Part shown: positions 34,563 to 46,262 of the stretch, in pieces | Layout: every line of letters begins with the position of its first letter | Numbering within the stretch: the first letter of the stretch is position 1 | Assembly: GCF_900104895.1 (NCBI RefSeq) | Contig: NZ_LT629742.1 | Location: 248,001-312,000, forward strand | Direction: 5' to 3' | Origin: Microterricola viridarii | GTDB lineage: Bacteria > Actinomycetota > Actinomycetes > Actinomycetales > Microbacteriaceae | Length of the DNA: 64,000 bases | Position numbers and translations under genes: made by a program | The notes under the pieces: model-generated | What the model saw: only the letters and a program-made list of their open reading frames with translations | The model's database searches: none | What the model was told of the DNA's origin: nothing

Positions 34563-36047
34563 CTACTTGTAGCGGTGGTTCTGCTTGATTCGGTTGGTGA
34601 GCTCGGTGACCTGGTTGTAGATCGAGCGACGCTCCTTCATGAGCTCGCTGATCTTCTTGTTCGCGTACATCACCGTGGTGTGGTCGCGGTTGCCGAAGAG
34701 CTGGCCGATCTTGGGCAGGGAGAGGTTCGTCAGCTCACGGCAGAGGTACATGGCGATCTGCCGGGCCGTGGCGACGGCCTGTGAGCGGCTCGAGCCGTAG
34801 AGGTCGTCGACGGTGAGCTTGAAGTAGTCGGCCGTGTTCGTGATGATGTCGGCCGGCGCGATGACGTTGTCCTCGTCGAGCGTGATCAGGTCCTTGAGCA
34901 CCGTCTGCACCAGGTTCATGTCGACGGGCGTGCGGTTGAGGCTGGCGAACGCGGTCACGCGGATCAGCGTTCCCTCCAGCTCACGGATGTTCGAGGAGAC
35001 CTTGGTCGCGATGAACTCGAGGATGTCGTCGGGCGCCTGCATCCGCTCGGACTGCGCCTTCTTGCGCAGAATGGCGATGCGCGTCTCCAGGTCGGGCACC
35101 TGGACGTCGGTGATGAGGCCCCACTCGAAGCGGCTGCGCATGCGGTCCTCGAAGCCGGTGAGCGCCTTGGGCGGCAGGTCGCTGGTGATGACCACCTGCT
35201 TGTTGTGGTCGTGCAGTGTGTTGAAGGTGTGGAAGAAGGCCTCCTGGGTCTCGGCCTTCCCCTGCAGGAACTGGATGTCGTCGATCAGCAGGATGTCGAT
35301 GTTGCGGTAGCGGGACTGGAAGACGGCGCCGCGGTTGTTGGCGATCGAGTTGATGAAGTCGTTCGTGAACTCCTCGGAGCTGACGTAGCGCACGCGCACA
35401 CCCGGGTACAGGCTCATCGCGTAGTGGCCGATGGCGTGCAGGAGGTGGGTCTTGCCCAGCCCGGAGTCCCCATAGATGAAGAGCGGGTTGTACGCCTTCG
35501 CGGGAGCCTCGGCGACGGCGACGGCCGCGGCGTGGGCGAAACGGTTGGACTGCCCGATGACGAAGTTGTCGAAGCTGTACTTCGGGTTCAGCCGGGTGTC
35601 ATTGGACTGCTCCGGCGAGCTGTGTTCGAACACGGACTGCGGCGCCGCCGGCGTCTCGACGACATTCGCCTGCGGCTGCACCAGCGGAGGTGCGGCCAGG
35701 TGGGCCGGCATCGCGGCCGCGGCGAGGGTTCCTGCCTCCTGCGTCTCGAAAGCCTGCTGGGTAGCCACCTCGCTCTCGAGCTCGGGGTTGACGACCACGT
35801 AGAAGTTGGCGATCGCCGGCGTGCCGATGGCGCTCATCGCGGCGAGCAACGAGGTGCGCATGCGCTGGTTCAGCATGCTCGCGGTGAAGTCGTTGGGCAC
35901 CTCCAGATAGAAGGTGCCCGCGGCGATGCCCTTGGGCTCGACCAGATTGAGGAATCCGTAGAGCATGGGCGTGATTGTGCTGTCGGCGGAGAGACCCGCG
36001 AGTACCGCGGCCCAGGTGTTCTCGATCGGCTGTTCGACGTCGGCCAT
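34563..36047 (-). CDS. dnaA: Chromosomal replication initiator DnaA, 494 aa
   Basis: An AAA+ initiator that binds 9-bp boxes, melts oriC and loads helicase. Domain I covers about residues 1-95, a Pro/Ala-rich domain II about 95-165, the AAA+ domain has Walker A GDSGLGKTHLL and Walker B LLIDDIQFL, and the C-terminal domain has the DnaA signature RDHTTVMYANKKI. The start is the ATG at 36045-36047 (MADVEQPIENTW). The open frame upstream has no suitable start and falls in the DnaA-box promoter region. Confidence 0.98.
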   Translation of the reverse strand: MADVEQPIENTWAAVLAGLSADSTITPMLYGFLNLVEPKGIAAGTFYLEVPNDFTASMLNQRMRTSLLAAMSAIGTPAIANFYVVVNPELESEVATQQAFETQEAGTLAAAAMPAHLAAPPLVQPQANVVETPAAPQSVFEHSSPEQSNDTRLNPKYSFDNFVIGQSNRFAHAAAVAVAEAPAKAYNPLFIYGDSGLGKTHLLHAIGHYAMSLYPGVRVRYVSSEEFTNDFINSIANNRGAVFQSRYRNIDILLIDDIQFLQGKAETQEAFFHTFNTLHDHNKQVVITSDLPPKALTGFEDRMRSRFEWGLITDVQVPDLETRIAILRKKAQSERMQAPDDILEFIATKVSSNIRELEGTLIRVTAFASLNRTPVDMNLVQTVLKDLITLDEDNVIAPADIITNTADYFKLTVDDLYGSSRSQAVATARQIAMYLCRELTNLSLPKIGQLFGNRDHTTVMYANKKISELMKERRSIYNQVTELTNRIKQNHRYK

Positions 36048-36473
36048 TGTTTCTCCACACTTGCTCGGTGACTCTTCGGCGCTAGATGCCCCTCTCGGTG
36101 TCGCAGTGCAGTGGTGCACTGCGGGATGCCGCAGGCGGCGCATCCGAGAAAGTGAAAAGTACTCACAGAGTTATCCACCCCTGTGTGTAACCCCGACAAA
36201 ACTACCGGAATTACGCGCATCTTGTTGGGGATAACTCGGTGCTTTACGCTAATCTCTTGGACGACTTGCTCCAAATCGTCCACCGAGCGGCGCTCCCAGG
36301 CGCTCCCGCAAGCTGGGAATACCGTAGAGAATCCGGCGTCGGACGGGCTTCCGGTTTGACCACAGCCTGCGCAGGCCGTAGTTTTAATAGGTTGACCCCA
36401 GCCTTCTGGCTGCCCAAATTTCTTTCCCGGCCACTCCAAGGCTCGTGGAGATCCAACACGTGGAGTACACACA
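36048..36473. promoter_or_regulatory. dnaA-rpmH divergent promoter region with DnaA boxes
   Basis: This 426-bp gene-free region holds the divergent dnaA and rpmH promoters. DnaA boxes TTATCCACC (36171-36179) and TGGGGATAA (36226-36234, reverse of TTATCCCCA) lie upstream of dnaA, so dnaA is probably self-regulated. For rpmH, AT-rich TTTAAT (36383-36388) is a candidate -10 with TTGACC (36356-36361) upstream at a longer than ideal spacing. A further TAATCT lies at 36250-36255. No other gene is seen. Confidence 0.6.
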
Positions 36474-38323: not shown

Positions 38324-38902
38324 ATGACCGACGTTCAGAACATCCCGACCGCTGATGACGCGGTCGTCGAGGCACCGGCCACCGCAGCATTCGACGCCGG
38401 CTTCGAGTCGGCCGCTCCGGAGCGCTCGGCTGCGCCCTCCCAGGCCCAGCTCGAGCAGGAGGGCGACATCGCCGCGGACTACATCGAGGAGTTCCTCGAC
38501 ATCTGCGATCTCGATGGCGACATCGACATCGATGCCCGCAACGGCCGCGCCTACCTCTCGGTGAACGCCGGCGAGGGCGCGAACATCTCGGTGCTCTCCC
38601 GCCCCGACACCGTGAACGCCCTGCAGGAGCTGACCCGCCTGGCCGTGCAGAGCAAGACCGGCGTGTTCTCCCGCCTGATCCTCGACATCGGGGGCTCGCG
38701 TGAGGCCCGTGAGGAAGAGCTCACCGCCCTCGTCACCCGCGCCATCGAGCGCATCGAGGCCGGCGCCTCGTCCGCGGCACTTCCCGCCATGTCGTCCTAC
38801 GAGCGCAAGCTCGTGCACGACATCGTGGGCGAGCGCGGCTACACCTCGGAATCCGACGGTGAGGGCCGCGACCGCCACACCGTGATCAGCCGCCGCGCCT
38901 AG
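38324..38902 (+). CDS. jag: Jag/KhpB-type RNA-binding protein (KH and R3H), 192 aa
   Basis: RNA-binding protein linked to cell elongation and division in Gram-positives. After an acidic Ala-rich start comes a KH-like domain (about residues 45-125, with DIDIDARNGRAYLSV) and a C-terminal R3H domain with MSSYERKLVHDIVGERGYTS, which has the Arg-x-x-x-His pattern. The last base of its TAG stop is the first base of a parS site. Confidence 0.92.
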   Translation: MTDVQNIPTADDAVVEAPATAAFDAGFESAAPERSAAPSQAQLEQEGDIAADYIEEFLDICDLDGDIDIDARNGRAYLSVNAGEGANISVLSRPDTVNALQELTRLAVQSKTGVFSRLILDIGGSREAREEELTALVTRAIERIEAGASSAALPAMSSYERKLVHDIVGERGYTSESDGEGRDRHTVISRRA

Positions 38903-39546: not shown

Positions 39547-39660
39547 TCGCCGTCTCGGCTTTTCATCTCGTGGTCGGCGTATGCTGTGCTGCTCGCTCAG
39601 TACTGGGCGGGCTCGCATCGGCAAATTCTGAAGACGCCGACCGCAGGGAATGGATTACAG

Positions 39661-41049
39661 ATGGCGAGTGCCGCGAGCCGTGGATGGTTCCACAAGAAGG
39701 GACGTGAGGATTCCGTCTCGGATCCAGCGGTCGGCACCCCTGCGGAGCAGGAATCCCACTCCCCCAGCGTTTCCCTCGCCGCATTCGACGCGATTGTCGA
39801 TGCGCAGCTGAACTCAAGTGCACCGGAGGATCCCTCCCACAGCACTGAAAATGACCCACCCACAACGACGCCGAGCGTTGACGAGACCGACGACCTCGGT
39901 TTCACTGACGCTGACTCGGGCGACGACCAGGAAGAAGCACCGTTTCACGTGAAACAATCCATCGAGAATCCCGTTCCTGCGGACGCTCACGGCCCCGAGT
40001 CCGCGCCCGCCGCGCCCGAGGCCACCTCCCCCGCCCGCGCCTCGGCCCGCGTCTCGGTGCCCGCCGTCAGCGCCGCCATCGATTGGGATGCCGCCACGCA
40101 CGCGGCCATGGCCGAGGATGCGGCGTCCGCCACGGTGGGCGCCCCCTCCCCCAGCGCCAAGGCACCGCTCGCCGAGGAGGTCGCGAGCCTCACCCGCCGC
40201 CGGCAGGCAATCGCCGAGCTCGTGCTGCCGCTCCCCGAGAAGACGCGCGTCCTGACGATCTCGAACCAGAAGGGCGGCGTCGGAAAGACGACCACCGCCG
40301 TGAACCTCGCCGCCGCTCTCGCGCGCCTCGGCGCCAAGGTGCTCGTCATCGACCTCGACCCGCAGGGCAACGCCTCGACCGCGTTGGGCGTGGAGCACCG
40401 CGCAGACGTTCCGAGCATCTACAACGTCATCATCGAGGACCTCCCGCTCGAATCGGTGGTTCAGAAGAGCCCCGAAGAGGGCGAGCTGTACTGCGTTCCT
40501 GCAAATATTCACCTGGCTGGAGCGGAAATCGAGCTGGTTTCCCTTGTTGCCCGTGAGCAGCGCCTGCGGCGAGCACTCGACGTGCACCTCGGTGAGATGG
40601 ACGAGCCGTACCACTACGTGTTCATTGACTGCCCTCCTTCCCTCGGCCTCCTGACGATCAACGCCTTCGTCGCGGCCAGCGAGGTGCTCATCCCCATCCA
40701 GTGCGAGTACTACGCGCTCGAGGGGCTCAGCCAGCTGCTGAAGAACATCGAGATGATCGAGAAGCACCTCAACCCCGTGCTGAGGGTCTCGACCATTCTG
40801 CTCACGATGTACGACGCCCGGACCAACCTGGCCAACCAGGTGGCACAGGACGTTCGGGACCACTTCCCCCAGCAGGTTTTGAGCACGATCATCCCCCGCT
40901 CCGTGCGCGTCTCCGAGGCGCCCAGCTACGGCCAGAGCGTGGTGAGCTACGACACGAACTCGTCGGGATCGCTGTCGTACCAAGAAGCGGCCGCCGAGAT
41001 GGCGCGTCGTGGAGCACCTCAGGTTTCAGCACGCACTGGAGGGAAGTAA
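39661..41049 (+). CDS. parA: Chromosome partitioning ATPase ParA with long N-terminal extension, 462 aa
   Basis: Walker-type ATPase whose nucleoid gradient moves ParB-parS complexes. The deviant Walker A KGGVGKTT has signature Lys204 and Lys209, and FIDCPPSLGLLTINA is the Walker B region. The catalytic part starts only near residue 195. Before it lies a disordered Ser/Ala/Pro/Asp-rich extension, while typical ParA has about 260-320 residues. The extension carries parS site 2 in frame (encoding FHVKQ). I use the ATG at 39661 with AGGGAA upstream. A later start would shorten the extension, so the exact N-terminus is open. Confidence 0.92.
   Translation: MASAASRGWFHKKGREDSVSDPAVGTPAEQESHSPSVSLAAFDAIVDAQLNSSAPEDPSHSTENDPPTTTPSVDETDDLGFTDADSGDDQEEAPFHVKQSIENPVPADAHGPESAPAAPEATSPARASARVSVPAVSAAIDWDAATHAAMAEDAASATVGAPSPSAKAPLAEEVASLTRRRQAIAELVLPLPEKTRVLTISNQKGGVGKTTTAVNLAAALARLGAKVLVIDLDPQGNASTALGVEHRADVPSIYNVIIEDLPLESVVQKSPEEGELYCVPANIHLAGAEIELVSLVAREQRLRRALDVHLGEMDEPYHYVFIDCPPSLGLLTINAFVAASEVLIPIQCEYYALEGLSQLLKNIEMIEKHLNPVLRVSTILLTMYDARTNLANQVAQDVRDHFPQQVLSTIIPRSVRVSEAPSYGQSVVSYDTNSSGSLSYQEAAAEMARRGAPQVSARTGGK
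39942..39955. promoter_or_regulatory. parS: parS site 2, inside parA
   Basis: Exact GTTTCACGTGAAAC within the coding sequence of the disordered ParA extension, about 280 nt after the presumed start. Confidence 0.93.
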
Positions 41050-41051
41050 GT

Positions 41052-42008
41052 ATGGCAAAGCGAACCGGCCTCGGCCGCGGTATCGGCGCACTCATCCCCA
41101 TGGTTGACGAGGTGAGAGAGCGTCCCGTCGACGTCTTCTTCCCCGACACCGTCGGCGCGGCGAGGACGGTCGAGGTGAGCCGCGAGGAGCTGGTCGTCGT
41201 TCCGGGTGCGCGTCTGGCGCATCTGAACCCCGCCGACATCGTGCCCAACGCCGTGCAGCCCCGCACGGTCTTCAACGAGCAGGACCTCGCTGAGCTCGTG
41301 CACAGCGTCCGCGAGATTGGCGTACTGCAGCCAATCGTCGTCCGCCCGCACGCGACGCTGCCCGGCAAGTATGAACTCGTCATGGGCGAGCGCCGTCTGC
41401 GCGCGACGCGTGAGGTCGGCCTGGACACGATCCCGGCCGTCATCCGTGACACAGCCGACAACGACATGCTGCGCGACGCCCTGCTCGAGAACCTGCACCG
41501 CTCGGAGCTCAACCCGCTCGAGGAGGCCTCGGCCTACCAGCAGCTGCTCAGCGACTTCGGGATCACCCAGGAGGAGCTCGGAAACCGCATCGGCCGTTCG
41601 CGTCCGCAGATCAGCAACACGCTCCGCCTCCTGAAGCTCCCCTCCCCCGTGCAGATGCGCGTGGCTGCCGGCGTGCTCTCTGCCGGTCACGCGCGAGCCA
41701 TCCTCTCGATGGGCGAGCCCGAGGCCATGCAGCGCCTCGCAGACAAGATCGTCAACGAAGACCTTTCAGTGCGGAGCGCCGAGGCTGTCGCCAGCAAGGC
41801 ACCGAAGCCCGCCCCGGCGGTCAAGCCCAACGCCGGAAAGAAGCAGGCCCACCTCGATGAGATCGCCGAGCGCCTGGGTGACCGTCTGAACACCCGAGTG
41901 AAGATGCACCTGGGTGCCCGCAAGGGTCAGATCACGATCGACTTCGCGACGGTTGGCGACCTCAACCGCATCCTCGGCGAGATCGGCGAGCCGGGCTTCA
42001 CCAAGTAA
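41052..42008 (+). CDS. parB: Chromosome partitioning CTPase/DNA-binding protein ParB, 318 aa
   Basis: Binds parS, loads as a CTP-dependent clamp and spreads along DNA. An N-terminal ParA-contact stretch (MAKRTGLGRGIGALIP) is followed by the CTP-binding ParB/Srx domain with GERRLRATRE, a helix-turn-helix with QEELGNRIGRSRPQISNTLRLL, and the C-terminal dimerisation domain. It lies 2 nt after parA and ends just before a long palindrome containing parS site 3. Confidence 0.97.
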   Translation: MAKRTGLGRGIGALIPMVDEVRERPVDVFFPDTVGAARTVEVSREELVVVPGARLAHLNPADIVPNAVQPRTVFNEQDLAELVHSVREIGVLQPIVVRPHATLPGKYELVMGERRLRATREVGLDTIPAVIRDTADNDMLRDALLENLHRSELNPLEEASAYQQLLSDFGITQEELGNRIGRSRPQISNTLRLLKLPSPVQMRVAAGVLSAGHARAILSMGEPEAMQRLADKIVNEDLSVRSAEAVASKAPKPAPAVKPNAGKKQAHLDEIAERLGDRLNTRVKMHLGARKGQITIDFATVGDLNRILGEIGEPGFTK

Positions 42009-42022
42009 CGCCAGTGCCTTCT

Positions 42023-42060
42023 CGAGTGCCCCATGTTTCACGTGAAACATGGGGCACTCG
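42023..42060. terminator. parS: 38-bp perfect palindrome with parS site 3 at its centre, after parB
   Basis: Two perfect 19-nt arms meet at the middle of GTTTCACGTGAAAC (42035-42048), 15 nt after the parB stop. The arms beyond the parS core (CGAGTGCCCCAT and complement) make an RNA hairpin, followed by CGTTTG, so the same bases may serve as parB terminator and ParB-binding site. Confidence 0.85.
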
Positions 42061-42084
42061 CGTTTGCACGCGTCGCGCACCCGC

Positions 42085-42108
42085 GCGATGTTTCACGTGA
42101 AACATCGC
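42085..42108. promoter_or_regulatory. parS: parS site 4 within a 24-bp palindrome
   Basis: GTTTCACGTGAAAC at 42090-42103, extended to perfect 12-nt arms (GCGAT added on each side). It lies 55 bp from site 3. Confidence 0.95.
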
Positions 42109-42645
42109 TGGCCTCGGGTGCTCGGCACCCCGTCCCTGCGGTCGGCTCGGCGTCAGGAGGGACCGCTGCCGCCGCGCCCCGCGAGCAGCTCGCCTGCGTG
42201 CCCGCTGCCCGTCTCCGGCGTCCGCGCTCGCGCCCTCGCAGGCGCCCCCCTCCCGGTGTCTGGCTCCGCTCTGTCCCGGTGGTTCGAGGGAGCTTGCGAC
42301 CGAAGCCACCCCGCCCCCGCACGCGCGCAGAACGACACTCGGGCCGCCACGGTTCACTCGGCTGGCACTCCGTACTGGAGGGAGTCTCGAGCGTAGCTCT
42401 GTGCGCTCCCTGGAGACCGCGCCCGGTGTCTGGCGCCGCTCCCCTCCCGGTGGCTCGAGGGAGCTTGCGACCGAAGCCACCTCTCCTCCATGGAGCAACT
42501 CTCGCCTGGCCCGCCTCCCGCCGCCACGCTGCGTGCAGTCGGCATTCCAACTAGCGCCTCGAGCGCATCTCTCCGCGCGCACTGGACGCTGCGCACGGTG
42601 TCTGGCGCCGCCCCCTCCCGTTGACTCAAGGGAGCGTGCAACCGA

Positions 42646-42921
42646 AGCCGCCTCCCCCGCAGAACGACGCTCCCCCGGCCACCGTCGCGCCTCCACGGCA
42701 CGCGCCGTCGGCGCCTTCGTCTGCTGCCTCGGGCACAGCCCTCCCCGCTCGTCTGGAGACCGCGCACGGTGTCTGGCGCCGCTCCGTCCCGGTGGCTCGA
42801 GGGAGCGTGCGACCGGAGCCGCCTCCCCCGCAGAACGACGCTCCCCCGGCCACCGTCGCGCCTCCACGGCACGCGCCGTCGGCGCCTTCGTCTGCTGCCT
42901 CGGGCACAGCCCTCCCCGCTC
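42646..42921. repeat. Perfect 105-bp direct repeat inside the array
   Basis: Bases 42646-42750 are identical to 42817-42921, offset by exactly one 171-bp unit. This indicates a recent duplication or gene conversion of one unit. Confidence 0.85.
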
Positions 42922-43509
42922 TGCTGGAGACTGCTCACTGAGTCCGGAGTGACTCCCTCCCGGTGGCTCGAGGGAGCTTGCGACCGAAGCCACAGGTCTA
43001 CGCCAAGACGACGCTCCTGCCCCCGCCGAGCTTCACTCTGTCAGCGCTCCATCTGGCCGCCTCCAGCGCATCTCTCCGCCCGGCCCGGACACCGCTCACT
43101 GTGCCCGGAGTCGCTCCCTCCCGGTGGGCTAGAGGGAACACACGACCGAAGCCACCTCCCCACAGCGCGACGCTCCTGTGGCCATCCCTTGCGCCTCCAC
43201 GCTGCGTGGAGCGAGTGCTTCGTATGCTGCATCGCACACCGCCTTCGCCGCTCTGCTGGAGACCTGCTCGCTGCGTCTGGCGCCACTCCCCTCCCGGTGG
43301 CTTGAGGGAGCTTGCGACCGAAGCCACCTTCCCACAGCGCGACGCTCTCCGGGCCACTGCTGCCGGTCGCGGCCTGCGCGCAGCTCGAAGGCAGCTGGCG
43401 CTCTTCGCGGGGCCGCGTCACCCGTCGCGGCCGACCTCCAACCCGCCGTTGAGAGCTGCCCTCATGCTGCTCGACGGGTGCTCTCACCGCTTTGGCCAGT
43501 GCTCTTCCC

Positions 43510-43713
43510 GGTGGCTCGAAGGAGCTTGCGACCGAAGCCACCTCCGCGCCATGGCGACGCTCCCCTCCCCCCTCCGCACCTCCACGCTTCGCGCGGCCGG
43601 CGCTCCGTCCCGGTGGCTCGAGGGAGCTTGCGACCGAAGCCACCTCCGCGCCATGGCGACGCTCCCCTCCCCCCTCCGCACCTCCAAGCTTCGCGCAGCC
43701 GGTGCTCCGTCCC
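43510..43713. repeat. 102-bp tandem duplication inside the array
   Basis: Units 43510-43611 and 43612-43713 are both 102 bp and differ at only four positions by my comparison. They are shortened forms of the 171-bp unit. Confidence 0.88.
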
Positions 43714-44640
43714 GGTGGCTCGAGGGAGCTTGCGACCGAAGCCACTACCCCACAGCGGCACTCCAACACAGGCCTTCCCACTGCCCAAAAGAAGGTCCGC
43801 GGTGTCCGTCAGATCCGTCTCCCCGCAGTTCGAGGACGCCCGCGGCCGGAGTCGCCTCCGCGGCAGAGCGACGCCCCTGCCGCCATCTCTAGCGCGCGCA
43901 GTCGGCACTCCCACTGGCTGCTTTCAGCGCAGCTCTCCGCGCTCCCCGGACACCGCTCACTGCGTCCGGAGTCGCTCCCTCCCGGTGGCTCGAGGGAGCG
44001 TGCGACCGAAGCCACCACCCGCGCCAGAACGACGCTCCCCTGGCCACCTCGCGCCTCCAGGTTGCGCGCAGCCGGCAGTCCGCCTGCTGCCACGGATACA
44101 GCCTTCCCCTCTCTACTGGCGACCGCTCACTGTGTCCGGAGTTGCTCCCTCCCGGTGGCTCGAGGGAGCATGCGACCAAAGCCACACGCCTGCGCCAACA
44201 CAAAGCTCTTGCCGCAATCTCTCCCGCCGCCACGCTTCACTCTGCCAGCACTCCAATTGGTTGAGTCGAGCGCAGCTCTCCGTGGTCCCAGGAGATCGCG
44301 CACGGTGTCCGGAGTCACTCCCTCCCGGTGGCTCGAGGGAGCGTGCGACGGAAGCCACCTCCCCCACTTCGAGACCTCCTGTGGCCACCCCTCGCGCATC
44401 CACGCGTCACACAATCGGCGCCTCCAGCGGGCGCCTCGGGCGCAGCTCTCCACGCACCACGAGACGGCGCACCTGTCTACTGGCGCTCCCTCTCGGTGGC
44501 TCGAGGGAGCGTGCGACCGAAGCCACCTCCGTCGCCCAATTGGGTCGCCCGAGCGCTTCTCTCGGGCCACACACCATGTGGGTCGACCGCGACTGGTGCG
44601 CCTCGCAAGTGACAACTCATCTCGATGCTGGCGCCCCGCC

Positions 44641-45179
44641 TACAGCGTTGGGCTGTCCTCCGGATGCCCGATAGTTTCGAGCGAGTTGGGCGAGCGCTGG
44701 CCGAGCGTTGGCCGAGCCCGACCCACATCGCGAGCGAGCAACTCGATCACGCTGGATGCCGGGCTTCGGGAGCTGCGCTGCTCCTTCGTCGCGGCGCGGC
44801 TCCCTCGAGCCGACGCAGAGTGACGTGGGCAGACGCGGGCAGACTTCGGCTAGATCGGTCTGCTCTCCCCTGCGTGGCGGTGCGCTGGCGCCGCAGACGA
44901 AGCCTGCGGGGAGTGAAATGTCTGCCTGCTCGAACCAGACAATGTGGTGATCTCGACAGCCGCAATCAACGGGAGCAATAGCCACTCCCCTGGGTCGCGG
45001 CAGGCTCGCTGCCGAAGCCGTCATGGGCGGGGAGCCGCCGCCGCATCACGCAGGCTCGCGCGGCTCGGGAGCCGCATCGCGCCTTCGCCTTGGCGCGGCT
45101 CCCTCGAGCCGGCGGGACCGACAAGCTCAGCGCAGCGTGGGGTTCGCCAGGGGCATGCAGCGGGTGGGGCGGCTCGAGC
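44641..45179. other. Gene-free stretch between repeat array and parS site 5
   Basis: I see no convincing gene here. Open frames exist on both strands but are GC-driven and resemble no family. GCGCGGCTCCCTCGAGCC occurs at about 44794-44811 and again at 45093-45110. Its reverse contains GGCTCGAGGGAGC, a part of the array core, so these may be decayed inverted copies. Confidence 0.5.
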
Positions 45180-45193
45180 GTTTCACGTGAAAC
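45180..45193. promoter_or_regulatory. parS: parS site 5, right of the repeat array
   Basis: Exact GTTTCACGTGAAAC, about 3.1 kb from site 4, on the far side of the array and just downstream of the ddl gene end. Confidence 0.95.
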
Positions 45194-45209
45194 ATTTGGG
45201 CGGAGACAG

Positions 45210-45238
45210 CGAAAGGGCGCCCATCGGGCGCCCTTTCG
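45210..45238. terminator. Terminator hairpin downstream of ddl
   Basis: CGAAAGGGCGCCC and its exact complement form a 13-bp stem with a 3-nt loop, 25 nt after the ddl stop on the minus strand. The T tract is part of the stem (CTTTCG). Confidence 0.7.
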
Positions 45239-45263
45239 TGTGTGTCCTGTGTCGACTGCGGCG

Positions 45264-46262
45264 CTAGTGCCGCGCAGCGGCCGCCAGAGCCCCGTAGACG
45301 GCTCCAAGCTCCTGGCCCGAGGCCTCGATCGCCTGGGGCAGCAACGACGTCTCTGTGAGGCCGGGGAGGACGTTTGCCTCCAGGAACCAGAGAGTTCCGT
45401 CCGCGTCGAGGATGAAGTCGATGCGGGAGACGTGGCGCAGGCCGAGCAGCTCGTGCACGGCGACGGCGGTCTCGGCGACCAACTCGGCGGCCTCCTCCGA
45501 GATCCGCGCGGGGGCGAAGAAGGTGGTCTCCCCCGCGTTGTAGCGAGCGTCGAAGCTGTAGACGCCGCTGCTGGCCTGGATCTCGACGGCGGGAAGGGCC
45601 TCCGGCCCGTCGCCGGTGTCGATGACGCCGACAGCCAACTCGACGCCACTGACGCGCTGCTCGATGAGGGCGACATCCGAGTAGGTGTACGCCTCGACGA
45701 CGGCGCGGGGAAGCTCGGCAGCCTCCGAGACGATCGAGACGCCCTGCGCCGATCCCCCGGCGGACGGCTTCACGACGAGGTCGGTGCCGAGGCGCTCGAT
45801 GACGCGGCTCAGCACGTTGGCGGCGCCGAGGTCGCGGAACGTCTCCTTGGCCAGCGTGATGGAGGCCGGGGTCGCGATGCCCGCGCGGGCGACGAGAGTC
45901 TTCGCGGTGGGCTTGGACCAGGCCAGTGCCGCGTCGTCGCCGCGGGACCCGACGAAGGACAGGCCGGCTGCCTCGAGCAGGCTGAGCAGCGCGCCGTCCT
46001 CTCCGCTGGCTCCGTGCAGTGCCGGCCAGACGACGTCCGGCTTGTGCGCCGCGAGGGCGTCGAGCAGGCCGGCGTCGGGGTCGAGCACGGTCACGCGGTG
46101 CCCGGCACCGGTGAGCGCGTCGGCCACGCGGCGACCCGAGCGCAGCGAAACATCGCGCTCGTGCGAAATTCCACCGGCGAGGACGACGATGTCCAGCGGG
46201 GCCACCGTTGTGGCGGCATCCGTGGCTGCAGGCGTGTTCTCTGCTGCAATGTTTTCAGTCAT
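45264..46262 (-). CDS. ddl: D-alanine--D-alanine ligase family ATP-grasp protein, 332 aa
   Basis: ATP-grasp ligase resembling Ddl, which makes the D-Ala-D-Ala dipeptide for peptidoglycan. LAGGISHERDVSLRSG is the N-terminal Ddl block, WPALHGASGEDGALLSLLEAAGLSFVGS is the substrate and omega-loop region, and RIDFILDADGTLWFLEANVLPGLTETSLLPQ holds the metal-binding Asp, Glu and Asn. The position beside parB is common in Microbacteriaceae. Whether it is the only Ddl of the cell, or a paralogue with another D-amino acid preference, cannot be told. Confidence 0.85.
   Translation of the reverse strand: MTENIAAENTPAATDAATTVAPLDIVVLAGGISHERDVSLRSGRRVADALTGAGHRVTVLDPDAGLLDALAAHKPDVVWPALHGASGEDGALLSLLEAAGLSFVGSRGDDAALAWSKPTAKTLVARAGIATPASITLAKETFRDLGAANVLSRVIERLGTDLVVKPSAGGSAQGVSIVSEAAELPRAVVEAYTYSDVALIEQRVSGVELAVGVIDTGDGPEALPAVEIQASSGVYSFDARYNAGETTFFAPARISEEAAELVAETAVAVHELLGLRHVSRIDFILDADGTLWFLEANVLPGLTETSLLPQAIEASGQELGAVYGALAAAARH

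Follow-up and report, generated by a model that had tools for sequence, protein, structure and literature searches.

The gap between parB and ddl in Microterricola viridarii contains a satellite-like tandem array of a 33-bp imperfect palindrome, here called REP-A, that is also dispersed through the genome. The array lies at positions 42278..44527 (plus strand) of the window, by which we mean the whole stretch of 64,000 nucleotides that was analysed, and it is flanked by parS sites. We think it very likely that the array is REP/BIME-like in identity, and likely that it grew by tandem duplication within a permissive centromeric gap. Our preferred reading as a whole, a BIME-like REP-A array that was tandemly duplicated in a centromeric parS spacer and whose core has a DNA-level role, seems reasonably probable; that the core has been selected for such a role is, by itself, a tentative proposal. 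The locus joins REP/BIME-type tandem arrays and a chromosomal parS cluster, and our literature searches found no paper that does so, a Thermus megaplasmid paper being the possible exception.

A head-to-tail array of palindromes

A scan for the core (GGTGGCTCGAGGGAGCNTGCGACCGAAGCCACC, at most 7 mismatches) found 14 copies, all in direct orientation on the plus strand, together with one decayed copy. The 14 cores begin at 42278, 42449, 42620, 42791, 42962, 43124, 43296, 43510, 43612, 43714, 43984, 44154, 44327 and 44495, and the last one occupies 44495-44527. The intervals from core to core are, in order, 171, 171, 171, 171, 162, 172, 214, 102, 102, 270, 170, 173 and 168 bp. The decayed core (43824..43856, plus strand) lies in the 270-bp interval and belongs to a member of repeat family D1 at 43803-43864, with 65% identity. 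Tandem Repeats Finder (TRF), which the earlier note on this DNA had proposed to run, recovered a 171-bp period at 42410-43357 (5.6 copies, score 705) and a short 102-bp form at 43506..43745 on the plus strand (2.4 copies, 97% matches), the latter a recent duplication. Two neighboring 171-bp units at 42582..42923 (plus strand, family D3) are 93% identical and also represent a recent duplication. Twelve array copies have at most 3 mismatches, and no such copy occurred in 100 dinucleotide shuffles of the window. The parB-ddl gap has 741 repeated 12-mers, compared to 5.1 expected from 50 simulations.

The earlier note had described a regular head-to-tail array of about 15 copies, ending at 44640, in which the first four intervals were exactly 171 bp and most later ones 159-173 bp, with 102-bp short forms. 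The regular array is borne out by the TRF periods and the core scan, and the scan also gives the four initial intervals of 171 bp. The count holds for 14 good copies, the fifteenth being the decayed copy near 43824. Later intervals of 102 and 162-173 bp are indeed present, but there is also one of 214 bp, and the array stops with the last core at 44527 rather than at 44640.

The palindrome has 7-bp arms plus inner pairs, and its folding as DNA has a z-score of -1.2 to -1.6. By eye, the flank GCTCCCTC 5' of the core is complementary to GAGGGAGC within the core (for example, at 43973-44000), so that an alternative hairpin is possible in many units. By its spacers the array is not a CRISPR array: they are at least 69 bp long and are related to each other (0.60 identity versus 0.41 for shuffled sequence). 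An assembly artefact is unlikely, as the genome of the window (G000) and that of one sister (G004) are single contigs.

The array lies among the parS sites of the chromosome

The array is located between parB (41052..42008, plus strand; TIGR00180, 188 bits, cut-off 58.45) and the convergent gene ddl, encoding D-alanine--D-alanine ligase (45264..46262, minus strand; NF002378, 255.9 bits, cut-off 243). Upstream of parB is a parA open reading frame (39586..41049, plus strand) that matches TIGR03453 and NF041546, both under the curated cut-offs. dnaA (34563..36143, minus strand; TIGR00362, 531 bits, cut-off 343.9) is approximately 6 kb from the array. Using TGTTTCACGTGAAACA, which we take to be the parS consensus, we found three sites in the gap, all on the plus strand: parS 1 (42034..42049) and parS 2 (42089..42104), which are exact matches, and parS 3 (45179..45194), which has one mismatch. 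The array lies between parS 2 and parS 3, and no parS-like site with at most 2 mismatches was found inside it or elsewhere between 42105 and 45178.

G000 is one contig of 3,837,721 bases, and in all of it only four parS sites were found at up to one mismatch, at C1:287941-293194 (positions 39941, 42034, 42089 and 45179 of the window). Because all four are within 5.3 kb there, the parB-ddl gap is very probably the centromere of the chromosome, as judged from the parS sites, parAB and the position. We compared this genome with those of four sister Microterricola (G001-G004). All five have parS sites with at most one mismatch at the parB-ddl locus, although in G002 these are on two contigs (C8 and C107) that abut when set against the window.

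Several other features are present at or near the locus. parS 1 is inside a bigger palindrome (arms 42014-42041 and 42042-42069, 86% complementary) right behind the parB stop codon, and this palindrome could double as the parB terminator. A GC-rich hairpin near the 3' end of ddl (45211..45238) looks like a terminator by eye. Two further parS-like sites in the window, at 1756 and 38901, have 2 mismatches, and the one at 38901 is directly before rsmG. The parA reading frame has about 217 residues ahead of the ParA domain (39586-40240), which are either a real extension or the product of a wrong start; the one-mismatch site at 39941 is in this N-terminal extension, or upstream of parA if the start is later. 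On the ddl side of the gap there are two copies of a longer palindrome, REP-C (family D11, minus strand), an inverted relative of REP-A that also occurs inside modules at some other loci. Copy 1 (44746..44815) shares GGCTCGAGGGAGC with REP-A and is inverted relative to the array; copy 2 (45045..45114) is 77% identical to copy 1.

REP-A is a dispersed family in Microterricola

The earlier note knew of no named element of this build and proposed that the core be searched for in the rest of the genome. The inner 27 bases of REP-A have 67 copies in G000 at up to 2 mismatches, 12 in the array and 55 outside it, some of them in short tandem clusters. The core is therefore a member of a dispersed REP-like family and not unique to the array. 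At the same threshold there are 59 copies in G002 and 59 in G004, counting their own arrays, and none in G001 or G003. Three of 299 sampled genomes of the family Microbacteriaceae have REP-A at up to one mismatch, and these are G000, G002 and G004. REP-A is thus confined to Microterricola among the genomes searched.

Outside the array, REP-A occurs in approximately 34 clusters in G000, most of them distant from parS. They are found as singles, as direct pairs set close together or, along with other palindromes, in short tandem modules; the intervals inside these G000 clusters are 30-58 and 112-243 bp. Threefold tandem modules of REP-A and other palindromes have units of 177 bp (locus L125), 164 bp (L129) and about 175 bp (L121, in G002). 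We determined the gene context of 32 loci (27 of the about 34 non-array clusters of G000 and five loci of G004) with a crude ORF caller. The flanking genes are codirectional at 22 loci, convergent at eight and divergent at two, and five of the 32 loci are inside or overlap a predicted reading frame. In these respects REP-A fits a broad definition of REPs: imperfect palindromes of 20-40 bp in many dispersed copies that are extragenic and rarely between divergent genes. The strand bias of REP-A relative to replication (22 of 34 clusters, p = 0.12) was not significant, with the terminus assumed to be opposite dnaA.

We considered mobilization by a RAYT/Y1 transposase (PF01797) and dropped it, as none of the five genus genomes has one by a search that was positive in 10 of 14 known genomes used as a control. 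The means by which REP-A has spread is therefore unexplained. CGTC REPs are likewise described as having no dedicated transposase (PMC3733652).

Arrays in sister species indicate age and rapid turnover

The same gap contains REP-A arrays in two sister species. In G004 the gap is 3263 bp long and contains 11 cores, spaced 133-266 bp apart. G002 has seven array cores at intervals of 171-290 bp, a count that assumes nothing is missing between its two contigs. The head-to-tail units and a copy number that changes between relatives (14, 7 and 11 in G000, G002 and G004) make the array satellite-like. The periods differ too, indicating that the 171-bp period is a local property and not a common one. 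We rejected a universal period of about 170 bp for this reason and because of the intervals in the non-array clusters. We also rejected a fixed distance between parS sites. The gap measures 3261 bp in G000 and 3263 bp in G004, but the distance from parB to parS 3 in G002 is about 2.2 kb (over two contigs), so the agreement between G000 and G004 looks like chance.

In G001 the gap is 1326 bp long with five parS-like sites, and in G003 it is 1497 bp long with four; neither contains a REP-A core. A different dispersed palindrome is present in the G001 gap as a single exact copy; at up to one mismatch this palindrome has 92 copies in G001 and 239 in G003. The centromeric gap of G003 (locus L117) has, at 292-394, a 25-bp tandem repeat of 3.4 copies with TTGAGCCACCCCGCT.

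The array cores differ from the dispersed copies in their arms. In all three species with an array, the array cores have the arms GGTGGC..GCCACC, whereas the dispersed copies mostly have GTTGGC..GCCAAC. The pair G2-C32 is present in 12 of 14 array cores in G000, five of seven in G002 and 11 of 11 in G004, compared to 1 of 39, 0 of 37 and 0 of 33 of the copies listed outside the arrays; only copies with at most 3 mismatches to an array-type pattern were listed, which biases against the difference. Since the array-specific arms are found in all three species, the array is most likely older than the split of G000, G002 and G004, and conversion from the dispersed copies is not what keeps the array cores alike. 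The ParB of the window is matched 100% by those of G002 and Microterricola pindariensis PON 10, and fourfold-degenerate sites of parB differ by 10% (G000-G002) to 40% (G000-G004). From the recent duplicates, which are 93% and 97% identical, we infer that tandem duplication in the array is still going on.

The core is the best conserved part of the unit

The earlier note had judged by eye that conservation was far higher in the core than elsewhere in the unit, and measurement agrees. The mean pairwise identity of 11 units, leaving out the decayed unit, is 0.888 for the core versus 0.625 for the rest. Adding the decayed unit gives 0.843 versus 0.613 for 12 units, an alignment without the short units near 43510, 43612 and 43714. 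No other window of the unit is as well conserved: the best 33-column window free of the core has an identity of 0.747. None of 20,000 random sets of columns equaled the identity of the core, with the qualification that columns are not independent. The spacers are also related to each other, with identities of 0.603 in G000, 0.532 in G002 and 0.580 in G004 versus about 0.41 for shuffled sequence.

Comparison between species gives a less decisive picture. In the blocks of G000 and G002 that align one to one, 5 of 63 core positions and 87 of 543 spacer positions differ, which is not significant (Fisher p = 0.097). In a wider alignment of the middle of the arrays, where orthology is unsure, 20 of 187 core positions and 146 of 671 spacer positions differ. 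Selection on the core, as the earlier note had suggested, is consistent with its conservation but is not proven by it: it is supported by the paralogues, with no more than a hint of it from the orthologues. Conversion between units could keep the cores alike without selection. Selection on REP cores is usually masked by recent spread, and the diverged spacers of this array provide a way to ask about it.

Tandem growth has occurred in the same gap in another genus

We also looked at the parB-ddl gaps of other Microbacteriaceae, a comparison that the earlier note had proposed. The survey covered 80 loci, the best among the 271 relatives found. Twenty-two loci with no ddl near parB were excluded from the analysis of gap length (20 from Microbacterium, one from an Actinomycetes MAG and that of M. 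pindariensis PON 10, L032, where the contig stops within the gap). One locus with the sequence of the G003 gap (L031) and the second locus of one organism (L093) were also excluded, leaving 56 gaps of other genera that range from 30 to 2942 bp. The 28 gaps with a parS-like site (at most 2 mismatches) have a median length of 667 bp (range 66-2942 bp) and the 28 without one have a median of 97 bp (range 30-200 bp), in a comparison of related species that are not independent cases. Units were compared within 23 gaps of other genera that are longer than 300 bp. Clear homology between units was found in two of them, both from Cryobacterium: L056, from strain Y11 (in 21 of 28 pairs of segments), and L094, from strain PH31-O1 (in 3 of 6 pairs). 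Two others, L034 and L042, have weaker relations, and 19 have none, three of which offer no pair to compare. Set against these 19, the Cryobacterium cases indicate that tandem growth in the parB-ddl gap is recurrent and not general.

The gap of Cryobacterium sp. Y11 (NZ_PJJO01000059.1) contains a tandem array with a 130-bp unit in 7.2 copies (TRF). Eight successive parS-like sites in this array are spaced exactly 130 bp apart, and 12 of the 15 parS-like sites of the genome (at most 2 mismatches) are within the gap. A palindrome that occurs 47 times in the genome (at most 3 mismatches) contributes seven copies to the array, one in each interval between parS sites. In Cryobacterium sp. PH31-O1, related segments lie between parS sites spaced 172, 158 and 157 bp apart, and this looks like a similar kind of array that is smaller or has decayed. 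The arrays of Microterricola and Cryobacterium are apparently independent, since their palindromes and units are unrelated. Two lineages would thus have built arrays in the same gap from different palindromes.

Explanations for the array

We postulate that a REP-A copy with altered arms settled in the parB-ddl spacer before the three species split. Local tandem duplication and unequal exchange would then have multiplied this copy together with its flank, and may still be doing so. We suspect that the core acts as DNA, in double-stranded or cruciform form, and that it is probably recognized by a topoisomerase or a nucleoid protein. The analogy is to BIME-2 of E. coli, at which gyrase cleaves in vivo; gyrase sites are reported as over-represented there and their cleavage as independent of transcription (PMC6379681). 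The array would have this role in common with the dispersed copies and would not be a dedicated signal for partition.

The most serious alternative is that the array has no function. REP copies would have accumulated in a tolerant gap and been duplicated in tandem, and the cores would be alike through conversion or as sites of recombination. We regard this neutral or selfish origin as somewhat doubtful but well worth weighing; it has the identity and the origin of the array in common with our preferred reading, so the two estimates overlap. The rapid change in copy number, period and spacers, the absence of REP-A (with 2 mismatches allowed) from G001 and G003, whose gaps are filled differently, the wide range of gap lengths in other genera and the lack of significance in the orthologue comparison are all as expected for a neutral repeat. 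Against it are the arms that set the array apart from the dispersed copies in three species, which exclude conversion from those copies as the cause, and the position of the core as the most conserved window of the unit. A dedicated role in partition is improbable. In this case the array, between parS 2 and parS 3, would be a working part of the centromere, either binding ParB, SMC or a nucleoid protein or determining where it sits. Because the array lies in the one parS cluster that the genome has (at most one mismatch), the earlier note's idea of a ParB, condensin or supercoil platform is more worth testing, and the array of Cryobacterium sp. Y11 does combine parS with a palindrome. However, the array itself has no parS-like site, REP-A is missing from two of five members of the genus, and the core occurs at about 34 other places, mostly distant from parS.

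The proposals that the array works as RNA or encodes protein fare worse. A transcribed structured RNA, one of the roles suggested in the earlier note, or a hairpin buffer for transcription between convergent genes is very unlikely. The array does lie between convergent 3' ends, and an RNA of the core by itself has a folding energy of -14.7 kcal/mol (z about -2.0, range -1.6 to -2.2), but in four segments of the array folding was no stronger than in shuffled sequence, whichever strand was used (z from -1.5 to +1.5). The covariation term of the consensus is unfavorable (+1.14), changes on both sides are seen in just two of 18 pairs, and the six Rfam matches in 41900-45300 (E at most 1) include none at the gathering score and none in the array. 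We rejected a repetitive protein-coding gene, which is scarcely conceivable despite long open frames in several frames, with reading frames of up to 498 amino acids across the array. Both strands are open in this GC-rich DNA, two blocks aligned between G000 and G002 have insertions or deletions of 1, 2, 3, 4 and 11 bases, and changes in these blocks show no excess at any codon phase (7/18/14 and 20/16/17). Five of the reading frames had no Pfam match.

The array in its parS setting suggests that satellite-like repeats can grow at bacterial centromeres as well. Satellites of eukaryotic centromeres are tandem units with a short conserved box and a fast turnover of copy number and spacers, and the array resembles them in these traits, with no homology. 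The period of human alpha satellite is also 171 bp, which we take to be a coincidence. We speculate that the parB-ddl gap of Microterricola and Cryobacterium might be a fast-evolving centromere that repeatedly grows satellites from the palindromes of the lineage, as a working part that shapes ParB/SMC loading or supercoiling. This is unlikely, but if the palindromes were a working part, the gap would be a bacterial counterpart to satellite-bearing centromeres. Any effect of the repeats on segregation or topology could be tested here in a small, complete genome, and repeats with no such effect would be a clean example of satellite growth at a bacterial centromere.

Relation to known repeats

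Tandem clusters of REPs organized in head-to-tail modules, the BIMEs, have been described (PMC2817692). Like BIME-2 of E. coli and the BIMEs of Stenotrophomonas in that account, the array consists of regularly spaced head-to-tail modules of a dispersed intergenic REP, in variants that keep the palindrome. BIMEs as described alternate in orientation, whereas 14 of 14 cores here are on the plus strand. The array also differs from them in its mostly long units of about 171 bp, the lack of a RAYT gene and the location in a parS cluster. It is like the parS clusters of bacterial chromosomes in that the gap holds parS sites and is near dnaA, but the repeated core is not a parS site.

REPs are reported to lie mostly between codirectional or convergent genes and rarely between divergent ones (PMC3733652), and the gene context of REP-A follows the pattern given there. 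REP-A also resembles the GTAG and CGTC super-families of that survey, the main text of which does not mention "Actinobacteria", in being a small imperfect palindrome with many copies. Unlike those REPs, REP-A has no unpaired tag by eye; its flanks are mostly CCC-GTTGGC...GCCAAC-NCC at the loci viewed. Copy 1 of REP-C opens with CGTCGGC on the minus strand, a resemblance to CGTC only, and copy 2 opens with CGCCGGC.
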